DNA of 64,000 nt from Mesorhizobium sp. (GTDB lineage Bacteria; Pseudomonadota; Alphaproteobacteria; Rhizobiales; Rhizobiaceae). Both the position numbers and the translations under genes were made by a program. The stretch is from contig SAJS01000017.1 in NCBI GenBank assembly GCA_004017535.1, positions 62,001 to 126,000 on the forward strand, read 5' to 3'. The notes under the pieces were generated by a model. That model was not told the origin of the DNA. It searched no databases and was given only the letters and a program-made list of their open reading frames with translations. Shown one piece after another: positions 19,941 through 39,701 of this stretch (position 1 is its first letter; the number at the start of each line of letters is the position of its first letter).

Positions 19941-22378
19941 CGCACGCGATCGACACGAGCTTCAAACAGAAGAAGCTGGCGCGGCTGGCCGAGCGGCGGC
20001 GCAGGCTGTGGCGCCGGGCTCTTGCCGGCCTTGCCACGCTCGCCGTCGTTGCTTCGGCCACCGGCTTCTATCTGACCAGGGACTATTGGTCGTTCGGCGA
20101 CGAGGACGAGGAGCTGCATCCGGTCGAGGGCATGGAAGACGTCCCGCCCGACGCGTCAGTCTATGTGCCGGCGATCATCGACCTTGCCGGCGACCCGATG
20201 TGGATCACGCTGGCGCCCGATGCCGAGACCGCGACGAAGGGCAAGACCGTCGCGCGTCCGGCCGAGCTCGACAGCTCGGGGGCCTCGCCGCAGATCGAGA
20301 TCCTCTCCGACGTGATGCTGAGCGCCAGCGAAAAGTTCATGACGACGATCCCTTCGACGCAGGAAGATTTCGCCTTCTTCCAGGCGCAGCGGCAGGCCGC
20401 TCCCAGGCCCTCGGCTACGGCGCCCGTCGACCAGCAACCGGCCCCGCCCGCCCCGGCCGCGGCGCCGGACGATCAACTGGGCGATCCGCAAGGCGACCTG
20501 CAGAACGATCTCCAGGCGGCACCGGACGACAGCGACGCCGGCTCGGCGCCCAAGGCGGACGCCGACGCCCCCGAGGCCGGCTGGGGCGAGACCATCGACC
20601 AGGGCGAGGCAGCACTCCCCGCCTTCAAGAAAACCGCGATCGAGAACAACACGACCGTCGCGACCGTCACCAGCGAGTATCAGCGCTTCGAGGCGACCGA
20701 GGACACGTTCGTGAAGATCCTCAACGACCGCAGCCTGGACAGCGTGGCGCTCGACGCGCATTTCTCCGCCGACGACGCCAAGCTTGCCGGCGAGGCGCTG
20801 AAGGCGCTGTTCAACCGCGACGGGCTGGAAGCCGGCTTTGTGGTGGCCATGCGCGGGTTCCGGCCGAACCGCGAGACGACGACCATGTCGCTGATGCAGG
20901 TCTCCGTCTACGCCAAGAATGTCTATGTCGGCACGCTGACGCGCAATGCGGCCGGCGCCTTCGTGTCGGGCGTCGACCCCTGGGTCCGCGAGGACCTGTT
21001 CAACTATTCCGGCGCCTCGGACCAAGGGGGCCCCAAGCGGCAGTACCGCCTGCTCGACGCGATATATTCGACCGCGGCGCGCAACAAGGTGCCGACCAAC
21101 GTCATCGGCGAGGCGATCATGTACCTGTCCCGCGGGCAGGACCTCGACGCCTTCGCAAGCGAGGATCAGCGCCTGGTGCTGATCTATTCGCAGACGCCAC
21201 GCGGACAGGGCCAGATTTCCGGAAGGGTGCTTTACGTCGGCGTCCAGGGTACAGACAGGAGTCTGGACTGTTTCGTCTTCCAGCAGAGCGACGGCCAATA
21301 TGCCTGCGTGACCGGCGACGACCAGGTCCGCTCGCTGGCCGTCACCAACGGCATGGTCACGCCGGTGGCCGGAGTGATGACCTCGACCTTCGGCCCGCGC
21401 ATGCACCCGATTCTCGGAACGGTTCGGATCCACAAGGGCGTCGACTGGGCGGCACCGGTCGGCACGCCGGTCATGGCCGCCTTCGACGGCGAGATCTCGT
21501 TCCAAGGCGATGGCGGCAGCTATGGCAATCTGGTGAAGATCACGCATGCCAACGGCCGCGAGACGCGCTATGCGCATATGCAGAAATTCGCCATTGCAAG
21601 CGGCGTCGGCACCAGGGTGAAGGCCGGCGACATCATCGGCTATATCGGCACCACCGGGCTTTCGACCGGGCCGCATCTGCATTTCGAGCTCTACCAGAAC
21701 GGCGAGGCTATCGACCCGCTGGGGACGGTCACCACGGTGGCTACCGCCGTTGCCGTCAGCTCCGGCGGTTCCGGCGATACTGCCGTCGAAACGCTCACCG
21801 ACCGGATCGTGCATGTCGAAAGTGGCGGCAGCGCGCGGGCCAAGAACCCGCTTTCCTCGGCGACCGGCGCCGGCCAGTTCATCTCCAAAACCTGGATCCG
21901 GATGATGAACACCTATCGGCCCGACCTTGCCCGCTCGCTTTCGACCGCCGACCTGCTCGCGCTTCGCTACGACGCGACACTGTCGCGCGAAATGGTGCGC
22001 AACCTGGCGCGCGAGGGCGAGGCCTATCTGCGCGCGCGCGGCCACCAGATCACCGCCGGTCGCCTCTATCTTTGCCATTTCCTCGGAATGGAAGGCGCGG
22101 CCCAGGTTCTGGCGGCGCCCGGCTCGACTCAGTTGAGCGCGGTGCTCGGGTCGGCCGTCATTCAGGCCAACCCGTTCCTCACCGGCAAGACCGCGAGCTA
22201 CGTCGTGGACTGGGCCGAGCGGAAGATGGGGCAGAAAGTGCCGCGCGTGGCGACCGACCAGGGCCAGCCGACGACGACCACGACCGAGGTGCGGCAGACG
22301 TCGCCGGAATTCGAGAAATACAAGCAGGCGATCACCGCGCTGATAGGCTCCCTCCAGGAGACGCTGGAGCCCGGTTAG
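19937..22378 (+). CDS. Two-domain peptidoglycan hydrolase: M23 metallopeptidase plus lytic-transglycosylase-like domain
   Basis: This 813-residue envelope protein starts at GTG 19937, overlapping the DUF1036 stop. A basic N-terminus and one membrane helix (LAGLATLAVVASATGFYL, about 27-45) precede a Pro/Ala/Asp-rich region and a central domain of unknown type (about 230-460). The M23/LytM endopeptidase domain follows: HKGVDWAAPVGTPV with His 499 and Asp 503, and HLHFELY at 580-585, the complete zinc set. The last ~200 residues look lysozyme-like (IVHVESGGSARAKN, SATGAGQFISKTWIRMM, with Glu in HVESGG as candidate catalyst). One protein could therefore cut both peptide stems and glycan strands. 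As last gene of the kinase transcript it probably opens the wall for T6SS assembly; delivery as an effector is possible but no cargo signal is visible. Confidence 0.88.
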   Translation: MTHAIDTSFKQKKLARLAERRRRLWRRALAGLATLAVVASATGFYLTRDYWSFGDEDEELHPVEGMEDVPPDASVYVPAIIDLAGDPMWITLAPDAETATKGKTVARPAELDSSGASPQIEILSDVMLSASEKFMTTIPSTQEDFAFFQAQRQAAPRPSATAPVDQQPAPPAPAAAPDDQLGDPQGDLQNDLQAAPDDSDAGSAPKADADAPEAGWGETIDQGEAALPAFKKTAIENNTTVATVTSEYQRFEATEDTFVKILNDRSLDSVALDAHFSADDAKLAGEALKALFNRDGLEAGFVVAMRGFRPNRETTTMSLMQVSVYAKNVYVGTLTRNAAGAFVSGVDPWVREDLFNYSGASDQGGPKRQYRLLDAIYSTAARNKVPTNVIGEAIMYLSRGQDLDAFASEDQRLVLIYSQTPRGQGQISGRVLYVGVQGTDRSLDCFVFQQSDGQYACVTGDDQVRSLAVTNGMVTPVAGVMTSTFGPRMHPILGTVRIHKGVDWAAPVGTPVMAAFDGEISFQGDGGSYGNLVKITHANGRETRYAHMQKFAIASGVGTRVKAGDIIGYIGTTGLSTGPHLHFELYQNGEAIDPLGTVTTVATAVAVSSGGSGDTAVETLTDRIVHVESGGSARAKNPLSSATGAGQFISKTWIRMMNTYRPDLARSLSTADLLALRYDATLSREMVRNLAREGEAYLRARGHQITAGRLYLCHFLGMEGAAQVLAAPGSTQLSAVLGSAVIQANPFLTGKTASYVVDWAERKMGQKVPRVATDQGQPTTTTTEVRQTSPEFEKYKQAITALIGSLQETLEPG

Positions 22379-22782
22379 GTCCTTAACACAGAAGTTTTGA
22401 CCGGTTGGCTATGTGTGCGTTGGCATGCCTTGGCGATTGGCCGGGACGCCTATCGCGATCGTCATCCACGGGCGGAGCAAGGAGCCTTCAGCTCATCGCC
22501 AGCGTTTGCGCTGGCTACCGCAACGTTGATGGCCTTGCCCGACAAGTCTGCAATCTTTCACTGTGTTGAGGAACTAGCCGGTTGACCAAACCTCGCGTTT
22601 TTGGATCGGCCGATTGGTTTTAGATACTCACGCAGGAATTTCGGGCCCCCCTCGTGAACCAAATCTGTGGTCGAGATCACAGACGCTCAAGAGACGATTT
22701 TGGCAGAAGCGACGTTGTCGCTTACGACACTCAGCATGCGCAGACATCGATAACGCGCCCCAAGGGGCGGAGGGCTGATCCC
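22379..22782. other. Intergenic region between the hydrolase gene and the broken caspase gene
   Basis: The 404 bases contain no supported gene. Short frames (for example 22397-22585) show no family features and no ribosome site. The composition is less G+C rich than the flanks, consistent with a promoter region for the caspase gene. No clear hairpin terminator was seen after the hydrolase stop. Confidence 0.5.
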
Positions 22783-23829
22783 ATGAAAGCGTTCGCCACC
22801 CTTCTGGGCGGGTTGATCCTGCTGTTCCACGCCGCGTTCGGCGCCCAGGCCGCCACGCGCGACGGCAAACGTGTCGCGCTGGTCATCGGCAACAGCAAAT
22901 ACGTCAATGCCGTCGCTTTGCCCAACCCGGCGAACGATGCCCGCCTTATCGCGTCCACGCTGCGCAACGCCGGCTTCGAGGTGATCGAAGGCGTCGACCA
23001 GGACAATGCCGGCATGCACAGCCTGATCAGCAAATTCACCGAAGAGTCCTACAATGCCGACCTCGCCGTCATCTACTATGCCGGGCACGGCATGCAGGTC
23101 GACGGCAGGAACTACCTTATCCCGGTCGATGCCGAGCTGACGTCGCCGGCCTATCTCAAGACCCGCACCGTCCAGATCGACGAGTTCATGACGGCGCCGC
23201 TGCCAGCGTGCGCGCCAGCGGGTTGTCGCGGCAGGCGTCGAGGATGATGATGCCGACAGCGGGGTCGGCCGGCAGCGCTGCCGAAGAGCCGCTCGCTCGG
23301 CGCCGGCCTGGCGCCGGTCGACGCAAAGGCCGACGGCATGGGCACGGGCGGCGTCCTGATCGCCTATGCGACCGATCCCGGCGCCATCGCCTTCGACGGC
23401 AACGGCGCCATCGCGCTCGACCGCAATGGCCGCATCGACCTGCAATTGCGTATCGAAGCGCTGGGCAACGAGCTCGGCCAGGTCGACGGCAATATCGGCC
23501 CGAGGACGCGCCAGGCGATCGGCGTCTGGCAAGGCAAGAACGGCCTGCCCTCAACCACCTATCTGACGCGCGAACAGCTGGCTCTGCTGGTGATCCAGAC
23601 CGACCCGATGATGGATGCCGTGCGCGCCAGGAACGCCGCCGACCAGGCGCGCGCCGCGCCGACCAAGAAACAGGTCGCGCAGAAGACCCGCACGCTGGAC
23701 CCGACGGCGCAGCAAAAGCCGCGCCGGAAACAGACGCAGGTCGTTCAGCGCCGCCGCAACAGCGACACCGTGGTTCGCGAGGACGCGCCGCCGCCGAGAG
23801 AAAACAACGACTTCCTGACCAGGCGCTGA
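22783..23829 (+). pseudogene. Caspase-like (peptidase C14) protein with peptidoglycan-binding tail, interrupted by an 80-bp inversion
   Basis: From ATG 22783 the product has a signal peptide (LLGGLILLFHAAFGAQA), KRVALVIGNSKYVNAVALPNPANDA and YYAGHGMQVDGRNYLIPVDA with the caspase histidine at residue 102. At 23198 the frame loses homology and stops at TGA 23245-23247. The missing segment GIIILDACRDNPLARTL, with the catalytic cysteine, lies on the opposite strand at 23198-23277. Re-inverting that segment on paper gives one open frame of 348 residues through to 23829, with cysteine at 154, continuing LPKSRSLGAGLAPVDAKADGMGTGGVLIAYATDPGAIAFDG. Residues about 225-285 resemble PG_binding_1 (NELGQVDGNIGPRTRQAIGVWQ). 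The part equivalent to the caspase small subunit (SPFTTALL in the paralogues) is also absent, a possible second lesion. As read, only 154 residues are made, without the active cysteine. Confidence 0.85.
23198..23277 (-). other. Inverted 80-bp segment carrying the caspase catalytic-cysteine motif
   Basis: The ends are a perfect 7-bp inverted repeat, CGCTGCC (23198-23204) and GGCAGCG (23271-23277). The right end lies inside a 12-bp palindrome GGCAGCGCTGCC (23271-23282). Read on the minus strand the segment encodes LPADPAVGIIILDACRDNPLARTLAA in the exact phase needed to fill the gap in the plus-strand caspase gene. Exact breakpoints can lie anywhere within the 7-bp arms. Confidence 0.85.
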
Positions 23830-23878
23830 TCTTCGGCAGCGGCGTTGTGATCGGCAACGCGACCAAGAATTGATCGTT

Positions 23879-23925
23879 GAGCAATTCAAGGAAAGTGTGA
23901 AGCGGTTTACCGCCTAGAATTGCGT
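23879..23925 (+). repeat. Dispersed ~47-bp palindromic repeat, copy 3
   Basis: It begins GAGCAATTC, has AGGAAAGTGTGAAGCGGTTT in the centre and ends AGAATTGCGT. It is the same element as at 9423-9470 and, inverted, at 10661-10706. It sits 50 bases after the end of the broken caspase gene. Confidence 0.75.
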
Positions 23926-23939
23926 CCAAACAGACAGCA

Positions 23940-25303: not shown

Positions 25304-25345
25304 GGGCTTTTCGTCGGAGAGGATCGAGACGCTTCTAATCCAGGG

Positions 25346-26551
25346 TCATTTGCAGCCGCCTTGCGCCCACCTGGCGAGCGCAACCTTGAAGCGGGTGCCG
25401 AGCGGGTGTTGCAGGCGCAAGACGGAAACGTCGTTGGCGGCGAAATTCTTCGCCTGCTCGCAAAGGCGGGCCTCGTTCCACTCGTGACAGCCGTCGCAGT
25501 GCTTGCCTTGCCAGACCGATTTGTCGAGGCCTTCGACCGGGCTGAAAAGCGGCTCCCCCTTGATCAACTGGGCTATGCTCTTGCCGTCGATCGCCGGGTC
25601 GCCGAACTTGACCGGCCGATCGAAAAGGATCGGCCCGTCCGTCGCCAGTTTCGGGATCTTCTCGCGCAGCGCATTGAGGGCAAGCTGGTCGTCGGTCTGG
25701 GCCGATGCCGGGCCGGTGTTGCGCGTCTCGGAACCGGCTTCGGCCTGCGGCGCGCTTGCCTCGCCGACGATCAGCGGCGCATTGAGGTCGACCTTATGCA
25801 GCACGACCTCGGTGGTCAGCGAGACGTTGATCCAGGGGCGCTGCTTGCCGGCGGTCGCCTTGAAGACGTCGCTGGTCACCCTGTTCATGGCTTCGGTGAC
25901 GGAGACGTTGGCTTCGCCGATATGCTGGAGCAGCGCGGTGGTGAAGGGTGAGTGGTCGCCGGACCCATCATAAGCCAGCTGGTTCGGGCTGGCGGCGAAA
26001 GCGACCAGCGTGCCGGCACCGCCATTCTCGATTGGGATCTCCGCAAGGCCGCTGCTTGCGCCTTTTATGCCGGCGCTCTTCGCCAGCACGTCGGCAAGCG
26101 GGTTGTCGCGGCACGCATCCAGGAACACCAGCCTTATGCTGGTCTCACGCGACATCTGACGCAGGACGAAATCGACCGACACGGCCTCGAAATCGAGCGA
26201 GGTCTCGTCCTCGAGGGCAGCATCGACCGGCAGCAGATAGTTCTTGCCTGCGACCTGCAGGCCATGGCCGGCGTAGAAGAAAAGCGCGATGTCGGCGCCG
26301 CGCACCTGCTTTGCAAACTGCGCGACCGTGGCCTGCGTCTGCTGCTTGGTAAGGTCGAATCCAGAGACCACCTCGAAGCCGAGGTCCTTGAGCCGATCGG
26401 CCATGGCCTGGCCATCCCGCGCCGGATTGGCGAGGGGCGCGGCATGCTGATATTGCGAGTTGCCGAGCACCAGAGCGACGCGCCGCTCGGCGCTCGCGGC
26501 CGTCAACGTCACCAGCAAGGCAAGCGCTGCAAGTCCGGCGATGCGAAACAT
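25346..26551 (-). CDS. Caspase-like (peptidase C14) secreted protein with cysteine-rich CXXCH tail
   Basis: The 401-residue protein has a signal peptide (MFRIAGLAALALLVTLTAASA) and a caspase domain at about 22-275: RRVALVLGNSQYQHAAPLANP, FFYAGHGLQVAGKNYLLPVDA with His 96, FLDACRDNPLADVL with Cys 147, and the small-subunit part GTLVAFAASPNQLAYDGSGDHSPFTTALL. Both catalytic residues are present. After a variable linker the last 50 residues hold CDGCHEW (Cys 352, Cys 355, His 356) with further cysteines at 364 and 400. CXXCH is the pattern for covalent heme c, but a disulfide-bonded domain is equally possible. It lies 40 bases after the YceI-OmpA gene on the same strand. The acidic S1 pocket needed for Arg/Lys cleavage cannot be checked by eye. 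Confidence 0.88.
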   Translation of the reverse strand: MFRIAGLAALALLVTLTAASAERRVALVLGNSQYQHAAPLANPARDGQAMADRLKDLGFEVVSGFDLTKQQTQATVAQFAKQVRGADIALFFYAGHGLQVAGKNYLLPVDAALEDETSLDFEAVSVDFVLRQMSRETSIRLVFLDACRDNPLADVLAKSAGIKGASSGLAEIPIENGGAGTLVAFAASPNQLAYDGSGDHSPFTTALLQHIGEANVSVTEAMNRVTSDVFKATAGKQRPWINVSLTTEVVLHKVDLNAPLIVGEASAPQAEAGSETRNTGPASAQTDDQLALNALREKIPKLATDGPILFDRPVKFGDPAIDGKSIAQLIKGEPLFSPVEGLDKSVWQGKHCDGCHEWNEARLCEQAKNFAANDVSVLRLQHPLGTRFKVALARWAQGGCK

Positions 26552-26591
26552 GCCACCGCAAAAGGCGATCGGAGCGGAACTCACCGCCACC

Positions 26592-27692
26592 TCAGTTGGC
26601 GAGCTTCGTGGCGGAGAACTCGATCCGCCGGTTGAGCGCCTTGTTCTTGGGCGTGTCGTTGGCGGCGACCGGCTTGTCCTCGCCATAGCCGGCGGAACTG
26701 ATCTGGCTGCGCGGAACACCGTCGGCGACCAACGCATCGGCGACCGCCTGGGCACGCCGCTCGGAGAGCGCCTTGTTCGCCTCGGGCGATCCGTCGGAAT
26801 CGGTGTAGCCCGACACCTCGACCTTCAGGGTCGGGCATTTGCCGACGACGCCCTCGACCTCCGCCAGCAGCGGGCGGCTCTTCGCGTCCAGCCTTGCGCT
26901 TGCCTGGCGGAAATAGATGGCGCCGGTGCGCGAAAGCACGGCAAAGCGGTTGAGGCACTCCTCGTCGTTGAAATTGGACTTCGCCGCATCGGTGGCGACA
27001 GGCCCCACCTCGGTGGTCGAAGCGGCAACCGTCTGCACGGCGGCCGGCTTGGCGCCTTCGGCGTTGAAGACGAAATCGAAGGACACCGAGGCTGTGGGCA
27101 CGATGTTGGTCACATTGGCGGCCTGCTGCAATTTGTCGATGTTGGGCAAGAGGCCGAAATCCTCGACATGGACAGCGACAGGCGCTTCCGAAGCGACGGA
27201 AACCTGCGTGTCGCTGATCATGGTGACGACGACACTCGCCTCGAGATCCTTGTCGACGCCATGCAGGCTGAGGCGGAACGGCAAGGTCGTCTTCACCCGG
27301 CGCTTGGTCGCGAGGTCCGCGAACGCCGCGGGGTCCACCTTGGCCGTCACCTCGGCCGTCGGATAGGTGAATGTCTCGAAGAACAGGAAGCGCATGCGCA
27401 CATTGCGCAGGTCGACGCCCGTGTCGACGGAATTAAGGTCGAAGCTGATTTTGGCGTCGCCGGCCGAGCTCAGCGTGCCGGTGATGTTCCTGATCTTGTT
27501 GGTCTCGACGATCGTGTTCTTCTTGACCGACTGGTAGGTGAGCACGGAGGCCGAGGGATCAAGCGTCCAGTTCGGCGCGGCGCTTGCCGTTTGCGATCCG
27601 AAGATCAGCAGGCCCAGCAACGCGGCAAGGACAACGCCAAAAGCCGCGGCCTTGGCGCGCAGCTTTTGCCAGAATGCAACGATTTCGAACAT
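26592..27692 (-). CDS. YceI-like lipid-binding domain fused to an OmpA-like domain
   Basis: This is a 366-residue envelope protein. A membrane/signal helix (AAAFGVVLAALLGLLIFGSQTASA) is followed by a YceI-type lipocalin-like domain (about 40-215: NWTLDPSASVLTYQSVKKN, GTLSSAGDAKISFDLNSVDTGVDLRNVRMR, FPTAEVTAKVD-like FTYPTAEVTAKVD, PFRLSLHGVDKDLEASVVV, VEDFGLLPNIDKLQ). YceI domains bind polyprenoid or other long hydrophobic chains. A linker leads to an OmpA-like domain (about 262-366: VSGYTDSDGSPEANKALSERRAQAVADALV, GYGEDKPVAANDTPKNKALNRRIEF). ATG 27692 is chosen because it begins just before the hydrophobic helix. It is first of a two-gene run with the CXXCH caspase, suggesting a joint envelope task; the substrate is unknown. 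Confidence 0.85.
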   Translation of the reverse strand: MFEIVAFWQKLRAKAAAFGVVLAALLGLLIFGSQTASAAPNWTLDPSASVLTYQSVKKNTIVETNKIRNITGTLSSAGDAKISFDLNSVDTGVDLRNVRMRFLFFETFTYPTAEVTAKVDPAAFADLATKRRVKTTLPFRLSLHGVDKDLEASVVVTMISDTQVSVASEAPVAVHVEDFGLLPNIDKLQQAANVTNIVPTASVSFDFVFNAEGAKPAAVQTVAASTTEVGPVATDAAKSNFNDEECLNRFAVLSRTGAIYFRQASARLDAKSRPLLAEVEGVVGKCPTLKVEVSGYTDSDGSPEANKALSERRAQAVADALVADGVPRSQISSAGYGEDKPVAANDTPKNKALNRRIEFSATKLAN

Positions 27693-27838
27693 GGAACGCC
27701 CCCGCCAGGACAACCCGATCTCGATACCGGCACGTGGCGGGAGCATAGAGCACTTGCCCCTGCTTGGCGAGCGGTTCTAGGTGAAGTGACAGCTGGATCA
27801 ACCATCTAGAGAGATCCGGTGATCTCGGTCGACTCTCG

Positions 27839-28108
27839 CTACCAACTGTGCCCGCCTCCCGCACCTCCGCCCAAAGGCGTAATAACAGGCGGCGTATCAT
27901 TCTGAACGGGTTTGATCAGTTTCTTAGCAGTCACCTTCTTCCGTTTGATGACCTTCGGCGCAGTAGTCGTACGAACGACCTTGGTTCGGTGCTTTGTAGC
28001 CGGTGCCGGCTCAACCTTAGGGGTTACGGTGGTGCATCCGGTGGTCGCCAAGACACCGGATAAGACCGTTGCGATGATTGCCTGTTTTAACGCCCTGCCC
28101 ACCACCAT
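27839..28108 (-). CDS. Small lipoprotein-like protein with basic middle
   Basis: The 89-residue product has a hydrophobic N-terminus ending in VLATTGC, a loose lipobox that would place the lipidated cysteine near residue 25. Next comes a Lys/Arg/Thr-rich segment (KHRTKVVRTTTAPKVIKRKKVTAKKL) and a Gly-rich end. I recognise no family. It starts 12 bases after the stop of the large caspase gene on the same strand, so it is probably cotranscribed with it. The basic stretch could contact peptidoglycan, lipopolysaccharide or nucleic acid. Coding is supported by the ordered signal and position; A+T content is somewhat higher than in neighbouring genes. Confidence 0.6.
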   Translation of the reverse strand: MVVGRALKQAIIATVLSGVLATTGCTTVTPKVEPAPATKHRTKVVRTTTAPKVIKRKKVTAKKLIKPVQNDTPPVITPLGGGAGGGHSW

Positions 28109-28120
28109 TTCTCCTTATGC

Positions 28121-30670
28121 TCAGAACAAGTCTCGACGCGGGTTGGCTTGTTCCCAGACAGCTCTCGCCGTCTTGATCAATTGGTCGTCGACCGAACCAC
28201 CCGCTGGGATTTTCGATTTGAGTTCCGACCGCAACTGCTTGAGGGCAGCCGTCTTTGGCTTTGCGCCAAACTGCGCCAGCATTGTCTTTGCACTCGGCAG
28301 CTCGTCACGAAGATCAAGTCCGACCGCAAATGCTAGATACCGGACAGCCACCGCCTGATCGGCCTTGTTGCCCTTCTGCATCTCAAGAGCCGCTCGATCG
28401 TATGCACCGGAATAATCACCACGAGCGGCTGCCAGTTCGAACAGCTTTTGCGCCTCGGCTAAATCCTTCGGGACTCCAACGCCATCCCGGTACATGCGCG
28501 CAAGACTGGCAGGAGCATAGGGCTGGCCAAGATCCATCGCCTCCTGGAAAAGCGCCTGCGCCTGTTTCGGGTCCTGTTCGATGCCCCTGCCGGTGAGATA
28601 GTTGCGGCCGAGAAGGTTCATCGAATACATGTCCTGCCGCTCAACGCCGGCCTTGAGAAAGGCCACGGCCCGGGCCGGGTCGGCCGGCACACCATTGCGA
28701 CCATCCGTAAAGATCGAAGCAAGCTCGTTCATGGCATAGGTATGCCCCATCGCCGCGCCCTTGAGCAGCAAGTCCAATCCCTTGCTTGGGTCGCGCTGGA
28801 CGCCGAAACCATTGAACAGAGCGCGGCCCCACGCGGTCATCCCGTAAGGATCTCCCTTGTCAGATGCAGCGGAATAGAAGGTGTTTGCTTTCGCGGGATC
28901 GACAGCCGTTCCGATTCCAGACGCGACGATATAACCGAGCTCGAACACAGCGCGGACATGTCCCTTGTCGGCGGCGTCCTGGATTGCCTTCTTCGCCTCA
29001 TCGACCTTGCCGGCGGCGAGCATCGCGCGACCGAGTTCGTAGTGGAAACGCGCCACATCGGGATAGGCTTTCACCGCCGCCCGGCAGGCCTCCATCGCGT
29101 CTGCGCCGATCTCGTTCGGCAACAGGCCGGGGACGACGCCCTGCAGGTCCAAAGGCTCGCCTGCCTTCTGGTCGCACGGATCGACACTGGGCGACAGCTT
29201 CATCGTCGCCGGCTTTGACGGTGTGTTGTCGGCCGTGATTTCGACCCCGACGATCAATGGCTGGGCCGCGCCTATCTGCGGTTCGTAGCGCAGTTTATCG
29301 ACTTCATCGGCCATCAGGCTCGATTGCGGCGCCAGGGTCCGGTCCGGCAGGGACAGCGTCCCGGTCGCCGGATAGCTCGCGAGCTTCACGCTGACCGCCG
29401 GATCCTTGGTCGGCAAATCCAGCTTCAGCGGAACCGGGCCGACACCAACCGGAACGTTCACGTCGTGGTTCTCGATCGCCTCGGCGGCGCCGGCGATGTG
29501 GATGCCGCGCTCCACCACCTGCTGCTTCTGCTCGGACTCCAGCGAGGCCACGAGCTGCTTGCCGGCGGCGCCGTTGCCGTTCTTGACCCGGAACACCAGT
29601 ATGCCTTGCGATCCGCCGCCCCATTCGTCATGCGTGGCGTAGGCCAGCATATCGACCTGGTCCTCGGCGTCGACGCCCTTCGGCACATCCATCTGGAGAC
29701 GCGGCAGATCCTTGCCCTCTATCGGCTGGCCCGTCGCGACCGGCTTGCCGTCCAGGATCAGACGCCCCAGCCCCGGCGGCCTTTCGATGCTGATGGTGAC
29801 GGCGCCGCCGTCGACATCGACCGGCACAGGCAGATCGAGCGCGACAGGCCCGACGCCCGACGGCACGGTCTTTTCCAGCACCGGCGGCAAAGCCGGCCGG
29901 CTGGCGCGGCGCATCAGCACCACCTCGTCGATCAGCGAGGAATTCTCCCACGGGACCTGCGCCCCCTTGGTGGCCTCGACGACATCGCGGCGCACGGCCG
30001 CCATCACGGAGCGTATCTCCTGGTTCGGCGCCAGCGCGCGGCGTGAGAAGGCGGATGAGAACGGGCTGAGATCGCCGGAGCCGTCATAGGCGACGGCGCC
30101 CGGCTCGGTGGCGAAGGCGATCAGCGTGTTCAGCGAGCTCTTCACCTGCGCAAGGCCGGTGCCGCCGGCCGCGATCAACTGGTCGCGCAGCCAGTAGTCC
30201 TTGCGCGGGAACGGGTTGTTGCGGCAGGCGTCGAGGATGATCACCTGGATCTTCGATTTGGCGCGCAATTGCTGCAGGACATCGTCGAGCTTGACTGCCT
30301 GGACCTCGATGTCGGCCGCAGCCTTGAGCGACGCATCGACCGGGATCAGGAAATTCTCGCCGCCAATCTGAAAGCCGTGGCCCGAATAATAGACGACCGC
30401 CAGATCGGCGCCGTCCGCCGCCGCGAGGTAATTGCGGAACTCCTTCTCGAACTGGAGCTTGGTCAGGTCCTTGGCGACGAACACATCGAATCCGGCCAGC
30501 CGAAACGTGTTCGACACGTCCTCGGCATCCTTGTCGGGATTCTTGAGCGCCGGGATTTCGCGATATTCGGAATTGCCGATGACGAGCGCAACCCTGCGAT
30601 CGGCCTTGGCCTGCACCGTCGCGAGGCCCACGAGGATCAAGGCTGCAATCAGCGCGCAGCATCGCAGCAT
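28121..30670 (-). CDS. Large secreted caspase-like protein with beta-repeat region and Sel1 repeats
   Basis: This is an 849-residue protein from ATG 30670 (an in-frame start 58 codons earlier lacks features). The signal peptide MLRCCALIAALILVGLATVQA precedes a caspase domain (about 24-260): RRVALVIGNSEYREIPALKNP, YYSGHGFQIGGENFLIPVDA with His 98, ILDACRNNPF with Cys 149, and LIAFATEPGAVAYDGSGDLSPFSSAF. Residues about 285-530 contain two similar beta segments (VGPVALDLPVP..GLGRLILDGKPV and VGPVPLKLDLP..TGTLSLPDRTL, each followed by a DLPRLQ/KLRYEP motif) that recall cadherin/CSPG-like repeats. Residues about 570-790 are Sel1-type helical repeats (AVFELGYIVASGIGTAVDPAKANTFYSAASDKGDPYGMTAWGRALFNGFG and following), a protein-binding solenoid. 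Both catalytic residues are kept, so it should be an active envelope protease with its own docking platform. Confidence 0.88.
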   Translation of the reverse strand: MLRCCALIAALILVGLATVQAKADRRVALVIGNSEYREIPALKNPDKDAEDVSNTFRLAGFDVFVAKDLTKLQFEKEFRNYLAAADGADLAVVYYSGHGFQIGGENFLIPVDASLKAAADIEVQAVKLDDVLQQLRAKSKIQVIILDACRNNPFPRKDYWLRDQLIAAGGTGLAQVKSSLNTLIAFATEPGAVAYDGSGDLSPFSSAFSRRALAPNQEIRSVMAAVRRDVVEATKGAQVPWENSSLIDEVVLMRRASRPALPPVLEKTVPSGVGPVALDLPVPVDVDGGAVTISIERPPGLGRLILDGKPVATGQPIEGKDLPRLQMDVPKGVDAEDQVDMLAYATHDEWGGGSQGILVFRVKNGNGAAGKQLVASLESEQKQQVVERGIHIAGAAEAIENHDVNVPVGVGPVPLKLDLPTKDPAVSVKLASYPATGTLSLPDRTLAPQSSLMADEVDKLRYEPQIGAAQPLIVGVEITADNTPSKPATMKLSPSVDPCDQKAGEPLDLQGVVPGLLPNEIGADAMEACRAAVKAYPDVARFHYELGRAMLAAGKVDEAKKAIQDAADKGHVRAVFELGYIVASGIGTAVDPAKANTFYSAASDKGDPYGMTAWGRALFNGFGVQRDPSKGLDLLLKGAAMGHTYAMNELASIFTDGRNGVPADPARAVAFLKAGVERQDMYSMNLLGRNYLTGRGIEQDPKQAQALFQEAMDLGQPYAPASLARMYRDGVGVPKDLAEAQKLFELAAARGDYSGAYDRAALEMQKGNKADQAVAVRYLAFAVGLDLRDELPSAKTMLAQFGAKPKTAALKQLRSELKSKIPAGGSVDDQLIKTARAVWEQANPRRDLF

Positions 30671-30963
30671 GGCAAAATCCCTAACCGCTATGACCTGTCG
30701 GCCACAAGAATTCAGCTTGCGACGCGGAGGTCTGTTAAAGAGTTCACAATCCGACCGGGCAGGATGGAACCCTTGCACTAACGACAGGATGCATGCGTAT
30801 CGTCCAATCGCGCTCAGATTACCGCAGCAGCTTCGGTACCGCAACGACGGAACGGATACGCAACAACGAATCGCGATCGCCGGCGTGTGCTCTCAGCCCG
30901 ACCATTGCCTCCGCGCCGCACTGCGCGTTTATTAAAAGCGCCGAAGCAGCAGCCGAGAACCAG

Positions 30964-33699
30964 ATGCTGATAGAGACGAAGCTCCAGCCGCCCCATTTGC
31001 GCGACGCCCTTGTTCAAAGACCGCGGCTGCTGCATACCCTGGACGCCGCGACGGCGCGAAAGCTGACGGTGGTGACGTCGCCCGCCGGCTTCGGCAAATC
31101 GACTCTCCTCTCGCAATGGGCCGCGGGCATATCCGGCGGCATCGCCCAGGTCGCGTGGCTGTCGATCGACCGGCTGGACAACGATCTTGCCCGCTTCCTC
31201 AAATATCTCGCCGCCGCCTTTCACCGCGTCGATCCCGACATCGCCGGCAACGCGGAATCGCTGATCGACTCCAGCCCGGTGACGCCGGTCGATTCCATCC
31301 TCACCGCCATCATCAACCAATTGTCGCGCCGCACCGCGCCGATCTACCTCGTTCTCGATGACGCCCATTTGATCGTCTCGGGCGAGACCGCCGCCTGCAT
31401 CAACATGCTGGTCGCCTATGCGCCGCCCGCCTTGCGCATCGTGCTCGCAACCCGGGGCGAGCTGCCGCTCGAGCTTGCCCATATGAAGATGAAGGGGCAT
31501 GTCGTCAGCCTGGGCGACAGCGACCTGCGCTTTTCACTCGAGGAGACCGAGGACTATTTTGCCGATATCTGCGGCCTCGACCTCGCCGTCTCGGCCGTGG
31601 TGGCGCTCCACCACAAGACCGAAGGCTGGCCAGCCGGCCTGCAGCTTGCCGCTTTAGCCTTGGCTCATGAGGGGTCGAGAGAAGCCTTTATCGCCGAATT
31701 TTCCGGCAGCCAGCGCGACGTGGCAATGTTCCTGACCCACGACGTGCTCGCCCGGCAGGCGCCCGAGATCCAGGATTTCCTGCTCAGGACCTCTATCCTC
31801 GACCGCTTCTGCCTGGGCCTGGTGGAGGCGGTCTGTCCGGGACAGGACTGCGCTGCGGCGCTGGCGACCATCGAGCACTCGAACCTTTTCCTCATCGCGC
31901 TCGATTCCTCGGGACAATGGTTCCGCTATCACCACCTGTTCTCGGAGTTCCTGCGCAACAAGCTGGATGGCTGGGCGCCCGGGGCACGCAGGGACCTGCA
32001 TCGCTCAGCCGCCGCCTGGCTGGCAGCCCGAGGCTATATCTCCGACGCGGTCGACCATGCGCTTGCCAGCGGCGACGCCGACCATGCGGCGCGCCTGGTC
32101 GAGGAATGCGCCATGCCGCTGACCATGCAGGGCCATATCCCCAAGCTGACGGAGTGGCTGAACCAGCTTCCGGCGGACCTCATCGCCGCCCGCCCCCGCC
32201 TGCTCCTGGCGCGTGTCTGGGCGCAGTTCCACATGAGTCGGCCACGCCAGGCAGTCCGCATCCTCAAACAGGCCAAGACCCTGATCGGGCAGCTTGCCGA
32301 GCGCGGCGAGATCGACCGCGCGACCACCCGCTCGCTCAAGGCCGAACTGCAGACGCTGACGGCCGGCGTCATCAGCGCCACCGACCGTTCCCGCACGGCG
32401 ACCCGGGTCGCCTCGCGCTGGCTTGCGGATTTTCCCGAAGACGAGCCTTTCGCGCGCGGCACGCTCGCCAATATCTGCGCCTTCAGCCACTATTCGCTCG
32501 GCGAGCTGGATGCCGCACGCTTGCGAAGCCTCGCGGCACGCGACCATCATGCCGCCGCCAACTCGGTCTTCGGCATCGTCTATTGCGACCTGTTGCTAGG
32601 CCTGGTCGAAATCTCCGCGGGCAACCTCGCCGAGGCGCACCAATTGCTCGACCGCGCCTGCCGGCTCGCCCGCGAGCGCCTGGGACCCGGCTCCTACACG
32701 GAAGCGATGACGGCGATCTTCCATGTCGAGCTCGCCTACGAATGGAACGACCTGCAGGGCGCCGAGCGCATCCTGCACCAGCACCGGCAGATCATCGAGG
32801 AATGCGGGCTGGTCGTGCACGAGATGGCCTGCAAGCTGCATCTGGCGCGGCTCTCCGCCGCGCATGGGCGACACGACGAGGCCATCGTCTTTCTCGAACG
32901 CGCCGAACGGCTGGGCATCGAGAAGCGCTACCGCCGGCTGACCGCGGCTGCGCTGAACGAGCGGGTGCGGCTGCTTTTGTCGCGCGGTGACGTCCGCGCC
33001 GCACGGCTGGCGCTGCGCTCGCGCGGCATCGAGCCTTCGGCCGAGAGCCGGCCCGCCCCTGTCCATCCGCTCGACGAATACGCCCATATCGGCGCCGCGC
33101 GCGTGCTGATCGCCGAGGGCCACCCGGCGAAGGCCATCGCCGTGCTCGACCGCATCGCCGAACGCATGCGCCGCGACGGCCGCCTGCGCGGTTTCATGCA
33201 GGTGCGGGCGCTTGTCGCGATCGCCGCGCACAGCGCGGGCGAAACGCTGCTGGCGCTGGCGGCGGCGGTCGACGTCGTCACGTTGGCGCTGCCGCAGAAC
33301 GCATTGCGCTCCCTCATCGATGAGGACCTTCCCATGCGCGAGGTGCTGGAATTCGCACGCTCACGAATTCCGGCCTGGTCGCGCAATTCGAGCACAGCCA
33401 CCTTTGTCGACACTCTTCTGCGCGAACTGGGCAAGACCGCGCCCGAACGCGCGCGCCCGATAGCGATCGCCGGGAGGAAGCAGATGCTGAGCAGCAAGGA
33501 AACCGATGTCGCTGCCCTGCTTCTGCGCGCCTACACCAACCGCCAGCTGGCGGAGTCGCTGTCCATGGCGCCCGACACGGTGAAGTGGCACCTGAAGAAC
33601 ATCTTCGGCAAGCTCGGCGTCTCAAGCCGGACGGAAGCCGTCCTCAAGCTGAAGGAAATCGGGCTCGACGCAGCCACCGAACGGCAGTTGGCCGGCTAA
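30964..33699 (+). CDS. MalT-type LuxR-family transcriptional regulator (STAND ATPase)
   Basis: This is a 911-residue regulator with the MalT layout. The start ATG 30964 gives the standard opening LIETKLQPPHLRDALVQRPRLLHTL; the frame is open upstream to 30793 but that part has no features. An ATPase domain follows with Walker A SPAGFGKSTLL (from about residue 40), LVLDDAHLI as Walker B and VLATRGELPLELA. The middle is a long helical TPR-like sensor region. The C-terminal LuxR helix-turn-helix (about 840-905) reads LSSKETDVAALLLRAYTNRQLAESLSMAPDTVKWHLKNIFGKLGVSSRTEAVLKLKEIGL. Such proteins activate transcription on binding a small inducer. The next genes encode an amidohydrolase and an ABC importer, the likely targets. 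It is divergent from the large caspase gene. Confidence 0.9.
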   Translation: MLIETKLQPPHLRDALVQRPRLLHTLDAATARKLTVVTSPAGFGKSTLLSQWAAGISGGIAQVAWLSIDRLDNDLARFLKYLAAAFHRVDPDIAGNAESLIDSSPVTPVDSILTAIINQLSRRTAPIYLVLDDAHLIVSGETAACINMLVAYAPPALRIVLATRGELPLELAHMKMKGHVVSLGDSDLRFSLEETEDYFADICGLDLAVSAVVALHHKTEGWPAGLQLAALALAHEGSREAFIAEFSGSQRDVAMFLTHDVLARQAPEIQDFLLRTSILDRFCLGLVEAVCPGQDCAAALATIEHSNLFLIALDSSGQWFRYHHLFSEFLRNKLDGWAPGARRDLHRSAAAWLAARGYISDAVDHALASGDADHAARLVEECAMPLTMQGHIPKLTEWLNQLPADLIAARPRLLLARVWAQFHMSRPRQAVRILKQAKTLIGQLAERGEIDRATTRSLKAELQTLTAGVISATDRSRTATRVASRWLADFPEDEPFARGTLANICAFSHYSLGELDAARLRSLAARDHHAAANSVFGIVYCDLLLGLVEISAGNLAEAHQLLDRACRLARERLGPGSYTEAMTAIFHVELAYEWNDLQGAERILHQHRQIIEECGLVVHEMACKLHLARLSAAHGRHDEAIVFLERAERLGIEKRYRRLTAAALNERVRLLLSRGDVRAARLALRSRGIEPSAESRPAPVHPLDEYAHIGAARVLIAEGHPAKAIAVLDRIAERMRRDGRLRGFMQVRALVAIAAHSAGETLLALAAAVDVVTLALPQNALRSLIDEDLPMREVLEFARSRIPAWSRNSSTATFVDTLLRELGKTAPERARPIAIAGRKQMLSSKETDVAALLLRAYTNRQLAESLSMAPDTVKWHLKNIFGKLGVSSRTEAVLKLKEIGLDAATERQLAG

Positions 33700-33733
33700 A
33701 GCAATCTTCGGTCCGCAATTGCGCGGCGACAAG

Positions 33734-33768
33734 AACCACCCGAATGGGTGGGCTCAAAAAACCACCCG
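33734..33768 (+). promoter_or_regulatory. Candidate operator: repeated AACCACCCG boxes before the amidohydrolase gene
   Basis: AACCACCCG occurs at 33734-33742 and again at 33760-33768, a 26-bp spacing. The first copy is half of an inverted repeat CCACCC-GAAT-GGGTGG (33736-33751). It lies about 75-105 bases before the start of the class II deacetylase homologue and just after the LuxR-type gene. Binding by that regulator is inferred. Confidence 0.5.
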
Positions 33769-33840
33769 TTACCCGAAGGTGTCGGGACAGCGCTAATGTA
33801 GCGGGCCATCATCCGGCCGAGATACGCTGGGTGGTGCCGC

Positions 33841-34941
33841 ATGGCGACTGGTTTCGTTTTCCACGAACTTTATCTTTGGCACAACACCTGGAACTGGAAC
33901 CAGGTCTTCCCGCCGAGCCTGACGGTCCAGCCTGGCACGCATGCCGAAAATCCCGAGACCAAGCGGCGCCTGCGCAACCTGCTGGAAGTGAGCGGCATCC
34001 TCGACCATCTGGTCACCATCAAGCCGCGGCGCGCCACCGTGGAGGAGCTGTCGCGGGTCCACACGCCGGCGCATATCGCCAAGATCAGGGAGATCAGCGA
34101 TCGCGGCTATGGCGATGCCAGTTCGCTGACCCCCCTTGGCGCCGGCAGTTACGAGATCGCGCTTCTTGCCGCCGGCGGCGCCATCAAGGCGATGGAGGCC
34201 GTCATCACCGGCGAGGTCGACAATGCCTATGCGCTGATCCGTCCTCCGGGGCATCACGCCACCGCCGATGTCGGCATGGGCTTTTGCCTGTTCTCGAACG
34301 CGGCCATCGCCATCCGCCATGCACAGCAGTTGCACGGCCTCACGCGCATCGCGACCGTCGACTGGGACGTGCATCACGGCAACGGCACGCAGTCGATCTT
34401 CTACGACGATCCGAGCGTGCTTTCGATCTCGCTGCATCAGGACAATCTGTTCCCGGCCAATTCCGGTGCGATTGCTGAAAATGGCGAGGGCAAGGGCAAG
34501 GGCTTCAACATCAACGTCCCGCTGCCGCCGGGGTCCGGTCCCGGCGCCTATGCCGCGGCCTTCGAGCGCGTGGTGATCCCGGCGCTGACGCGCTTCAAGC
34601 CGGAGCTGATCGTGGTGCCCTCGGGCTTCGATGCTTCCGGAGTCGATCCGATGGGGCGCATGCTTATGAATTCCAGCGGTTACCGCAGGCTGGCGCGCAT
34701 ACTGCTCGACGCGGCGCGCGCGCTGTGCGGCGGGCGCCTGGTGATGACGCATGAGGGTGGCTACTCCGAAATGTACGTGCCCTATTGCGGCCTAGCGGTG
34801 ATCGAGGAGCTCTGCGGGCACCGCACGGGCGTCGAGGACCCGTGGGACCAGTTGATGGGACAATGGGGTGGAATGTCGGCGCAGCCGCATCAGACGGCAA
34901 TCATCGACCAGGCTGCCGAACTGGTCAAAAACATAAACTGA
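33841..34941 (+). CDS. Class II histone deacetylase / acetylpolyamine amidohydrolase family enzyme
   Basis: This 366-residue zinc amidohydrolase has the full arginase/deacetylase-fold set: RPPGHHATADVGMGFCLFSN (tandem histidines), VDWDVHHGNGTQSIFYDDPSVLSISLHQ (zinc Asp and His) and VVPSGFDASGVDPMGRM (zinc Asp). It would remove acetyl or similar acyl groups from amines, most likely small acetylated polyamines or amides rather than histones in a bacterium. The opening FVFHELYLWHNTWNWNQVFPP is typical of bacterial class II members found beside transporters. It lies 20 bases before the ABC substrate-binding protein gene, so uptake and deacylation appear linked. The start at ATG 33841 gives the expected N-terminus. 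Confidence 0.9.
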   Translation: MATGFVFHELYLWHNTWNWNQVFPPSLTVQPGTHAENPETKRRLRNLLEVSGILDHLVTIKPRRATVEELSRVHTPAHIAKIREISDRGYGDASSLTPLGAGSYEIALLAAGGAIKAMEAVITGEVDNAYALIRPPGHHATADVGMGFCLFSNAAIAIRHAQQLHGLTRIATVDWDVHHGNGTQSIFYDDPSVLSISLHQDNLFPANSGAIAENGEGKGKGFNINVPLPPGSGPGAYAAAFERVVIPALTRFKPELIVVPSGFDASGVDPMGRMLMNSSGYRRLARILLDAARALCGGRLVMTHEGGYSEMYVPYCGLAVIEELCGHRTGVEDPWDQLMGQWGGMSAQPHQTAIIDQAAELVKNIN

Positions 34942-34961
34942 CAAAAACAAGGGGAATCGAG

Positions 34962-36311
34962 ATGAAGCGCAGTTCGAAACTGACCACTCCGAATGTGATT
35001 GCCGGCTCTCGCCGCAATTTCCTGATCAAGGGCGGCCTTGCGACCGCCGCGACGCTGACCGGCATGCCGGCCATGCTGTTTTCGATGAACAACGAGGCGC
35101 GCGCCGAAGGCGACCCGATCCCGGTCGGCCAGTGCGGGCCGACCACCGATTTCGCCGCGCCCGACGGCATCGAGTTCAAGAACGGCCTGACGCTTGCCTG
35201 CGAGGAGATCAACGCGCTGGGCGGCATCCTCGGCCGGCCGCTCGAGCCGTCCTTCGAGGACACCGCGCAGATGGGAGACGCCACCAACGTTCAGGCGGCG
35301 CAGCGACTCGTCGACCGGCACGGCGTGCACGCCATCCTCAACGGTTACAACATCGGCTCCGGCGCCGCGATCCAGGAGGTCGCCGCCGACAACGGCATCA
35401 TCTACGTCCACTACGACACCACGATCGGCCACAACAATCTGGTGAAGTCCAACCCGGACCGCTACTGGGGTTCGTTCCAGGGCGATCCGGCCGAATACTG
35501 GTATGGCCCCGGCTTCCTGAAATTCCTGCAGGGACTGGAGGAGAACGGCGAGTGGAAGCGCAAGAACAACAAGATGGCGGTGATCCTGTCGGCCGGCGTC
35601 TATGCCTCCAACATCGCCAACGCCGTCAAGGAACAGGCCAAGAGCTACGGCTGGGACATCAGCCTGTTCGAGACCGTCAGCGTGCCTGCTTCCGAATGGG
35701 GACCGACGCTGGCCAAGATCCGCCAGGATCCGCCGGCGGTGATCTGCATCACGCACTTCCTGCCGGCCGATCTCGGGCAGTTCGCGCTGCAGTTCGCCTC
35801 GAACCCGACGCCGAGCCTGGTCTATATGCAATACGGCCCGTCGATCCCAGCCTTCCGCGACATCGCCAAGCAGGCCGCCAACGGCATCATCTACGCGACC
35901 GTCGTAGGCGCGCTGCAGGACGAGATCGGCACGGCCTTCGAGAAGCGCTACAAGGAAAAGTTCGGCCCGAACGCCGGCCATAATTCCGGTGCGCAGCCCT
36001 ATGACGGCGCCTATGTCTGGGCGACAGCCGCCGCACTTGCCGGCGGCACGGGCGAACCCGGCAACAACGACCAGAACCGCAAGGTTGCAGCCCGGATGAG
36101 CTCGATGATATGGCGCGGCGTGACCGGCACGACCCGCTTCATGCCGCTCGAGAACGCAGCCTACACCTATCCCACGCAGGTCAACGATTCATCGCTCGGC
36201 ATGCCGCATCAGTTCCTGCAGATCCAGGACTACACCAAGGGTCCCGGCCTGATCGCGCCGGCGCCATACGGCACGACCAAGTTCATGATGCCGCCATGGA
36301 TCAAGGCCTAG
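34962..36311 (+). CDS. ABC transporter substrate-binding protein (urea/amide/branched-chain type) with Tat-like signal
   Basis: This is a 449-residue periplasmic binding protein of the Leu/Ile/Val-urea-amide class. The N-terminus has a twin-arginine pattern, SRRNFLIKGGLATAATLTGMPAMLF, with cleavage expected after ARA near residue 47. The mature part starts IPVGQCGPTTDFAAPDGIEFKNGLTLACEEINALGGILGRPLEPSFEDTAQMGD, the usual first lobe. A GGGGAA ribosome site precedes the ATG. It is followed directly by two ATPases and two permeases, giving a complete transporter. The ligand is unknown; acetylated amines or short amides are suggested by the neighbouring amidohydrolase. Confidence 0.9.
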   Translation: MKRSSKLTTPNVIAGSRRNFLIKGGLATAATLTGMPAMLFSMNNEARAEGDPIPVGQCGPTTDFAAPDGIEFKNGLTLACEEINALGGILGRPLEPSFEDTAQMGDATNVQAAQRLVDRHGVHAILNGYNIGSGAAIQEVAADNGIIYVHYDTTIGHNNLVKSNPDRYWGSFQGDPAEYWYGPGFLKFLQGLEENGEWKRKNNKMAVILSAGVYASNIANAVKEQAKSYGWDISLFETVSVPASEWGPTLAKIRQDPPAVICITHFLPADLGQFALQFASNPTPSLVYMQYGPSIPAFRDIAKQAANGIIYATVVGALQDEIGTAFEKRYKEKFGPNAGHNSGAQPYDGAYVWATAAALAGGTGEPGNNDQNRKVAARMSSMIWRGVTGTTRFMPLENAAYTYPTQVNDSSLGMPHQFLQIQDYTKGPGLIAPAPYGTTKFMMPPWIKA

Positions 36312-36315
36312 CCGG

Positions 36316-37116
36316 ATGACGCAAGACGCCGCCGCGACGCCATTGCTGTCGTGCAGGCATGTCGGCAAGTCATTCGGCGCGCTCGCGGCGGTCCGCGATC
36401 TGTCCTTCGATGTCGGGGCTGGAGAAATCCTCGGCATCGGCGGACCGAACGGTGCCGGCAAGACGACGCTGTTCGAGGTGATCTCGGGGCTGAATCCGGC
36501 CACCAAAGGCGCTATCGTGCTCGACGGCCAGGACATCACCGGGCATGCGCCCGAGCAGATCTGTCATGCCGGCGTTGCCCGCACGTTCCAGCTCAACGCC
36601 GGCTTCGACAGCATGACCGCGCGCGAGAACGTGCTGGTCGGCGCCTATTTTGGCCGCAACAACCGGGCCGTGCCGACGCTGCGCGCCGGCCGCGCGGCGC
36701 ATGAGGCCGCCGATGCCGCGCTTGAGATGCTCGGCATCGCCGACCGCGCCGACAAAGTCACCGGCAAGCTGCCGGTGCTTGACCGCAAGCTCTTGATGAT
36801 GGCCAGCGCCATGGCGACGAAGCCGAAACTGCTTCTGATGGACGAGCCCGTCGGCGGCCTTACGGCGCGCGAGGTCGATCGTGTGATGGATGCCGTGCGC
36901 GCCATCAAGGCGGCAGGCGTCACCATCATCCTCATCGAGCATGTGATGCGCTTCCTGGTGCGCCTCTCCGACCGCATCATGATCATGCATCACGGCGAAA
37001 AGATATTCGAAGGCCTGCCGACGAAGCTCCTCGACGACCGCACCGTTGTCGACGTCTATCTCGGCCAGGGTGCCTCCGAGCGGCTGCGCTCCTTCATGGA
37101 AAACACGCATGGCTGA
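36316..37116 (+). CDS. ABC transporter ATPase, LivG type
   Basis: This 266-residue nucleotide-binding subunit has Walker A GPNGAGKTTLFE, family-typical QICHAGVARTFQLNAGFDSMTARENVLVGAYF, Walker B LLLMDEPVGGL and the switch histidine in LIEHVMRF. The signature motif is unusual: where LSGGQ-type sequence is expected it reads KLPVLDRKLLMMASAMA, so the canonical SGG(Q/E) is missing, a feature known in some urea/amide-type LivG members. It begins four bases after the binding-protein stop and overlaps the second ATPase by eight bases. Confidence 0.9.
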   Translation: MTQDAAATPLLSCRHVGKSFGALAAVRDLSFDVGAGEILGIGGPNGAGKTTLFEVISGLNPATKGAIVLDGQDITGHAPEQICHAGVARTFQLNAGFDSMTARENVLVGAYFGRNNRAVPTLRAGRAAHEAADAALEMLGIADRADKVTGKLPVLDRKLLMMASAMATKPKLLLMDEPVGGLTAREVDRVMDAVRAIKAAGVTIILIEHVMRFLVRLSDRIMIMHHGEKIFEGLPTKLLDDRTVVDVYLGQGASERLRSFMENTHG

Positions 37117-37819
37117 GGCAACTCTCGAGATCGTAGACGCGAGCGCCGGCTATGCCGGCCGCATCGTGCTCGACGCCATCAAACTTTCGGCAAGGAAGGG
37201 CCAGCTCACCGCCATTGTCGGCCCCAACGGCCATGGCAAGAGCACCCTGCTCAAGGCGATTTCCGGGCTGGTGCCGGTGACGTCCGGCGAGATCCACCTG
37301 GATGGCCTCCGCATCGACCGCCTGCGCCCCGACCAGATCGTCGAACGCGGCGTCATCCAGGTTCCGCAGGGCGACCTGCTCTTTCCGGCGATGACCGTGC
37401 ACGAGAACCTTTTGATGGGCGCATATGCAAACAGCGGCGGACTGGCCGAACGGCTCGATTTCGTCTTCACGCTGCTGCCCAAGCTGAAGGAGCGCCGCAA
37501 CCAGACCGCCGGCACGCTTTCCGGCGGCGAGCGCCGCATGTGCGGCATCGGCCGCGGCCTAATGGCCGGCGGCGAGGTGCTGATGCTGGACGAGCCCTCG
37601 CTCGGACTGGCGCCAATCGTCATCGAGCAAATCTACGAGGTCATCTTCAATCTCAGGCGGGAGGGCCGGACCATCCTTCTGGTCGAGGAAAATGCGGAGC
37701 GGATCGCCGAACATGCCGACATGATCCACCTGCTCGACAATGGCCGCATCGCCTGGTCGGGCCTGGGCGCCGAACTGATGGCGCGCCCGGAAATCGTCGA
37801 AACCTATCTCGGAGTGTGA
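37109..37819 (+). CDS. ABC transporter ATPase, LivF type
   Basis: This is a 236-residue nucleotide-binding subunit. It has Walker A GPNGHGKSTLLK, where His replaces the more usual Ala, signature TLSGGERRMCGIGRGLM, Walker B VLMLDEPSLGLAP and ILLVEENAERI in place of the switch His (Glu-Glu-Asn, normal for LivF). A start at ATG 37109 overlaps the LivG-type gene by eight bases, and an in-frame frame opening at 37046 is not needed. With the LivG-type subunit it powers the two permeases that follow three bases later. Confidence 0.92.
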   Translation: MAEATLEIVDASAGYAGRIVLDAIKLSARKGQLTAIVGPNGHGKSTLLKAISGLVPVTSGEIHLDGLRIDRLRPDQIVERGVIQVPQGDLLFPAMTVHENLLMGAYANSGGLAERLDFVFTLLPKLKERRNQTAGTLSGGERRMCGIGRGLMAGGEVLMLDEPSLGLAPIVIEQIYEVIFNLRREGRTILLVEENAERIAEHADMIHLLDNGRIAWSGLGAELMARPEIVETYLGV

Positions 37820-37822
37820 GCG

Positions 37823-39672: not shown

Positions 39673-39701
39673 CGACAGCTTCCATCGGCACTGCCTCCGG
39701 G

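Follow-up and report, generated by a model that had tools for sequence, protein, structure and literature searches.

The window analysed here (the whole 64-kb stretch of DNA, G000:C8:62001-126000) comes from a genome of 6.86 Mb in 73 contigs belonging to the genus Mesorhizobium, and contains a plus-strand gene that, judging from its sequence, is the remnant of a metacaspase. The features at and near this gene are as follows.

22783..23829, plus strand: apparently broken metacaspase gene (Peptidase_C14 and PG_binding_1), from translation, Pfam searches of separate pieces and intact orthologues
23194..23278, minus strand: inverted block that bears the active-site segment (read on the minus strand as IIILDACRDNPLARTL), given at its outermost limits with a 4-bp GCGC ambiguity at each end, from blastn, reversed-block alignment and identity counts
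23198..23204, plus strand: CGCTGCC, left arm of a 7-bp inverted pair
23245..23250, plus strand: in-frame stops, two consecutive TGA (codons 155-156), within the inverted block, from translation
23271..23277, plus strand: GGCAGCG, right arm of the same pair
23401..23407, plus strand: deletion scar (528 bp, in frame, 3-bp GCG match) with loss of the p10 region and linker, from alignment to relatives, anchor distance and the p10 motif
23819..23822, plus strand: 1-base loss relative to 8/8 aligned relatives, C-terminus altered and shortened, frame stop at 23829
25346-26755 and 28121-30844, minus strand: two further caspase-domain genes within 8 kb, adjoining OmpA/YceI, M23 peptidase and Ser/Thr kinase genes

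Near relatives encode a product of 538-539 amino acids from the same metacaspase gene, and the intact orthologue P0001, to which MALT1 chains are the best-matching solved structures by sequence, has the caspase p20 His and Cys motifs through which it resembles prokaryotic metacaspases (orthocaspases) with Peptidase_C14 and PG_binding_1 domains. The window copy begins with a hydrophobic stretch, which is followed by the N-terminal half of a caspase p20 domain, by nonsense with two TGA codons, and by a peptidoglycan-binding domain. When the pieces were run separately against Pfam, positions 1-102 of the PF00656 profile were matched by the piece at 22783-23187 (E 9e-22) and PF01471 was matched by the piece at 23281-23823 (E 7.5e-9). 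Unlike the orthocaspases, the window copy has neither an in-frame Cys segment nor a p10 motif; its p20 His and Cys do not share a single open frame because of a stop at codon 155 and the position of the Cys segment on the minus strand, and translation confines the internal stops of the frame 22783-23829 to the inverted segment. The initial annotation had correctly located a stop in this segment, at 23245, but had counted one TGA where there are two adjacent ones. Members of the metacaspase family that have lost the catalytic dyad are not uncommon; the Cys-His pair is reported to be intact in 84% of bacterial members and in 75% of alphaproteobacterial ones (PMC3501461). Most of these losses are substitutions rather than inversions.

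As had been claimed in the initial annotation, the active-site stretch missing from the plus-strand frame is read from the minus strand at 23198-23277. It has the sequence GIIILDACRDNPLARTL and lies within a minus-strand open reading frame at 23186-23929, and the accompanying proposal of an inversion of ~80 bp across the catalytic-cysteine segment is borne out by comparison with related loci. In blastn searches, the 80-bp segment matched the loci of 29/29 relatives, solely in the orientation opposite to that of their gene, with 83.5-96.3% identity and a best E value of 2.4e-33, which excludes a chance match. Moreover, allowing one reversed block lowered the number of mismatches over 180 bases from 61 to 9 against L009 and from 62 to 10 against L008, and the best register of the block was identical in all 29 relatives. 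Relative to L008 and L009 the block is reversed exactly in place and without change of length, source and target coordinates agreeing to within a few bases in more distant relatives, and blastn of the metacaspase locus aligned straight through the inversion. Equally good limits against L008 and L009 are obtained with a start at 23194-23198 and an end at 23274-23278, giving a block of 77-85 bp, and in these two comparisons GCGC is found at 23194-23197 and 23275-23278, although a 4-bp match is often expected by chance. The identity of the block to L009 (74/77) is about that of the flanks (392/408, 116/120 and 397/406), as is the case for L008 (block 71/77; flanks 395/408, 118/120 and 397/406), and the block is therefore the gene's own DNA reversed. 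At the level of the assembled sequence, an ~80-bp in-place inversion can be regarded as confirmed.

The 7-bp pair CGCTGCC/GGCAGCG, between which the segment had originally been placed, does exist, with a spacer of 66 nt between its arms, but it does not set the breakpoints. We rejected it as a recombination site because such pairs are commonplace (raw counts in the 64-kb window are 149 for spacers of 60-72 nt and 15 for exactly 66 nt), because its arms are seldom found together in relatives (2/29, and 1/46 readable named loci of 55, the one being L044 from the same genome as L009), and because the breakpoints coincide with GCGC instead. The arms do not show the conservation expected of inverted repeats that serve as recombination sites. 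What is seen is the pattern of a micro-inversion, namely a length-neutral reversal in place, short inverted matches at its ends, and a derived state in one lineage.

Two other lesions are present in the same gene. The 528 bases (176 codons) found at 23404 in L008, L009, L010 and L011 are absent from the window, and the stretch missing relative to four more distant relatives is 513-537 bases. The distance between anchors across this deletion is 42 in the window compared to 570 in L008, L009 and L011 (the anchor was not found in L010), and the p10 motif RPWHN(A/S)SL, which is kept in 29/29 and 55/55 relatives' loci, is absent from the window copy. At the junction, GGCAACGGCG on the left meets AGCGCC on the right, with GCG common to both; a 13-bp direct repeat suggested by overlapping blast ends was rejected because direct reading gives only the 3-bp match. 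The small-subunit region is thus missing, as had been remarked at the outset, but the fact that it was removed by a discrete in-frame deletion ~126 bp downstream of the inversion had been overlooked, as had the loss of one base near 23820. Similarly, the uninterrupted 348-codon frame said to be restored on re-inversion is a fair description as far as stops are concerned, but such a frame would still be without 176 codons and would end in a changed C-terminus. With the p10 region deleted and the C-terminus shifted whichever way the segment lies, neither orientation would be expected to give an intact, normal caspase. The peptidoglycan-binding part has also been lost in other lineages (products of 410-443 amino acids), and the p10 motif is retained there. 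Over 313 codons of surviving sequence, branch-specific changes number 2 nonsynonymous and 4 synonymous in the window, 1 and 3 in L008, and 2 and 8 in L009; no relaxed constraint is apparent, which speaks against a dead gene, although changes this few settle little and the lesions may be very young. This absence of decay suits a very young pseudogene or an error alike.

The distribution of the inverted state was assessed in 146 Mesorhizobium genomes, the window's own included, of which 140 gave some match; from among the matches listed, 79 orthologous loci were picked by hand, again including the window's own. The segment has the gene orientation, which is the ancestral one, in 77/78 loci of other genomes, the remaining locus (G097) being without a segment match among the matches listed, and the inverted state is confined to the window's genome among the loci scored. 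In the 67 genomes left unscored, the matches listed were only paralogue-like, weak or C-terminal (e.g., G052), or there were none. In a second collection, which overlaps the first, 55/55 named loci are in gene orientation and the frame is open up to and past the His and Cys motifs in 54/55. In these overlapping sets, none of the relatives scored is inverted and 1 locus is unscored. In L098, from 1501 (Mesorhizobium erdmanii USDA 3471), the same caspase gene is independently broken by an insertion that interrupts it after codon 123, and its downstream frame has DACGDN where relatives have DACRDN. As for the window's own assembly, the best 2 of 5 segment matches are the segment itself and a 40-base match in a neighbouring caspase gene, with no second full-length copy among the matches listed; a store of cassettes elsewhere was rejected given this one full-length match among those listed in the genome. 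Searches of plasmid records gave partial matches only.

An intergenic repeat with inverted ends lies upstream of the caspase gene at 22376-22575. In G076 this repeat occupies the same site in the opposite orientation and has extra internal sequence, and the site looks empty in G058. The inversion of 22380-22560 relative to G076 is thus a second one near the gene, which we count against the explanation given below. It is matched in 129/146 genomes of the genus, on both strands, and would appear to behave like a small dispersed element, for which no clear name was found in the literature. We considered whether its inversion was part of the same event as that of the gene; because the repeat is dispersed on both strands across the genus, no such link is needed, though one may exist. 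Colinear matches are missing over ~25320-27850 in G076 and ~27800-30540 in G058, which implies that the content of the caspase cluster varies between close species. Farther along, at 30770-39700, are frames that by eye resemble a LuxR-type regulator, a deacetylase and a branched-chain-type ABC transporter, and this region has no colinear match in the compared stretches of G076 and G058.

On the basis of these observations, it is highly probable that a chromosomal Mesorhizobium metacaspase gene has recently been pseudogenised, with a one-way, microhomology-mediated micro-inversion being accompanied by a deletion and a base loss. In the proposed history, a template switch would have taken a polymerase onto the opposite strand, or microhomology-mediated break-induced repair (MMBIR) would have operated, with a subsequent jump back, at the 4-bp GCGC matches. 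The resulting micro-inversion of ~80 bp would have reversed the DNA for the catalytic-cysteine segment and placed two stops in frame, the 528-bp deletion with its 3-bp match would have taken out the small-subunit region, either together with the inversion or on its own, and the 1-base loss would have altered the C-terminus; in whichever order they arose, these changes would have abolished function in the living strain. The lean toward a one-way mutation in the initial annotation is supported by the uniqueness of the state among the loci scored, the commonplace nature of the short repeats, the rarity of the arms in relatives and the two further lesions. We infer a replication or repair mechanism from the reversal in place, the 3-4 bp matches and the nearby microhomology deletion, all of which fit template switching or MMBIR; no driver or regulator of reversal was found at the locus. 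The loss also seems tolerable given that the genome contains five other caspase-domain genes without internal stops, and that the gene is independently broken in L098.

Short reverse-complement replacements of this kind, made in place without change of length and with short inverted matches at their ends, are known from template-switch and MMBIR microinversions (PMC8604942, PMC8755829). Yeast inverted-repeat spacer inversions have spacers of 2-5 bp and arms of >9 bp (Abraham and Hazkani-Covo 2021, PMC8604942), and primate microinversions span 17-33 nt, with an MMBIR route being proposed (Potapova et al. 2022, PMC8755829). The Mesorhizobium block differs from both in having a bacterial host and in being longer (~80 bp); its spacer, at 66 nt, also exceeds those described in yeast, and its matches are shorter than the yeast arms. 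We count these differences in length against our explanation. In a variant of the micro-inversion explanation, the odds of which overlap those of the explanation itself, inversion and deletion would stem from a single complex microhomology-mediated event with several polymerase jumps. The proximity of the two rearrangements and the presence of a short GCG or GCGC match at every junction speak for this idea, as does the MMBIR route already put forward for microinversions (PMC8755829), but GCG is frequent in GC-rich DNA and the shared motifs may be due to chance, independent lesions build up in a gene that is already dead, and the 1-base loss stands apart. We entertain a single event only tentatively.

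The library or assembly artefact also raised in the initial annotation, in which the inversion, and perhaps the deletion also, would be a chimera of the draft assembly that is absent from the strain, is unlikely. The state is seen in one draft genome of 73 contigs only, and what survives of the gene looks constrained, as though it were intact in the cell. Against an artefact, the locus is situated at ~85 kb of a 128-kb contig, away from the edges, and carries three lesions of different kinds within one gene, and junction matches of 3-4 bp are far below assembler overlap lengths. In addition, no other nested inversion was found in the aligned parts of contig C8 (88 kb against G076, 99 kb against G058) in a search that is blind to inversions of a few tens of bases or smaller and in which the upstream repeat, lying between aligned blocks, is uncounted. 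Raw counts of indels that are not multiples of 3 (57 against G076 and 68 against G058) were dropped as a control, since the placing of gaps in diverged and intergenic stretches makes them too high, and were replaced by a comparison of neighbouring frames. Several other frames were flagged in this comparison; in three that were followed up, the only stop falls at the N-terminal end of the compared frame or close to it, and others may be antisense frames or frames with differing starts.

Chanin et al. are said to have described intragenic invertons in bacteria in Nature in 2024, and the initial annotation had raised the idea that the active-site segment might flip back and forth to turn the caspase on and off. 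The 7-bp inverted pair that flanks the block, and the preservation of length and phase by the inversion, are in keeping with such a switch. Set against it are the loss of the p10 region, which leaves no normal caspase in either orientation, the presence of both arms in so few relatives and of so many comparable pairs in the window, and the absence of a second orientation among the matches listed for the assembly and of an inverted state among the relatives scored. Moreover, contig C8 has no match to the serine- or tyrosine-recombinase families (PF00239 and PF00589); the genome as a whole has 6 resolvase-domain and 12 integrase-domain matches, and a recombinase from elsewhere might possibly act on the segment. 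If repeated template switching or a trans-acting recombinase flipped the segment back and forth in the living strain, the population would contain two p10-less caspase fragments, with and without the active-site cysteine, which we think very improbable. Yeast template-switch spacers are reported to flip back on perfect 10-11 bp arms (PMC8604942), and a reversible flip here is conceivable solely as a rare, undirected event. The locus shares with bacterial invertons, intragenic ones included, the reversal of a segment between inverted repeats inside a gene, but differs from those of PMC11892184 and PMC11868660. Two states are not in evidence, the contig lacks a recombinase-family match, the arms are short and rarely shared by relatives, and the gene has been broken in other ways too. 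The literature matches listed include no description of a bacterial caspase switched by inversion. A reversible on/off switch is unsupported and exceedingly doubtful.

The micro-inversion is a clean case of tens of bases being reversed inside a coding gene of a bacterium, next to a microhomology deletion. Inversions of this kind are easily misread as clusters of substitutions, and could be taken for invertons. The sequence feature is real and its meaning appears to be ordinary, namely a metacaspase paralogue that has become a pseudogene in one lineage. All that caspase biology can take from it is that this paralogue can be lost from a genome in which five other caspase-domain genes are present.
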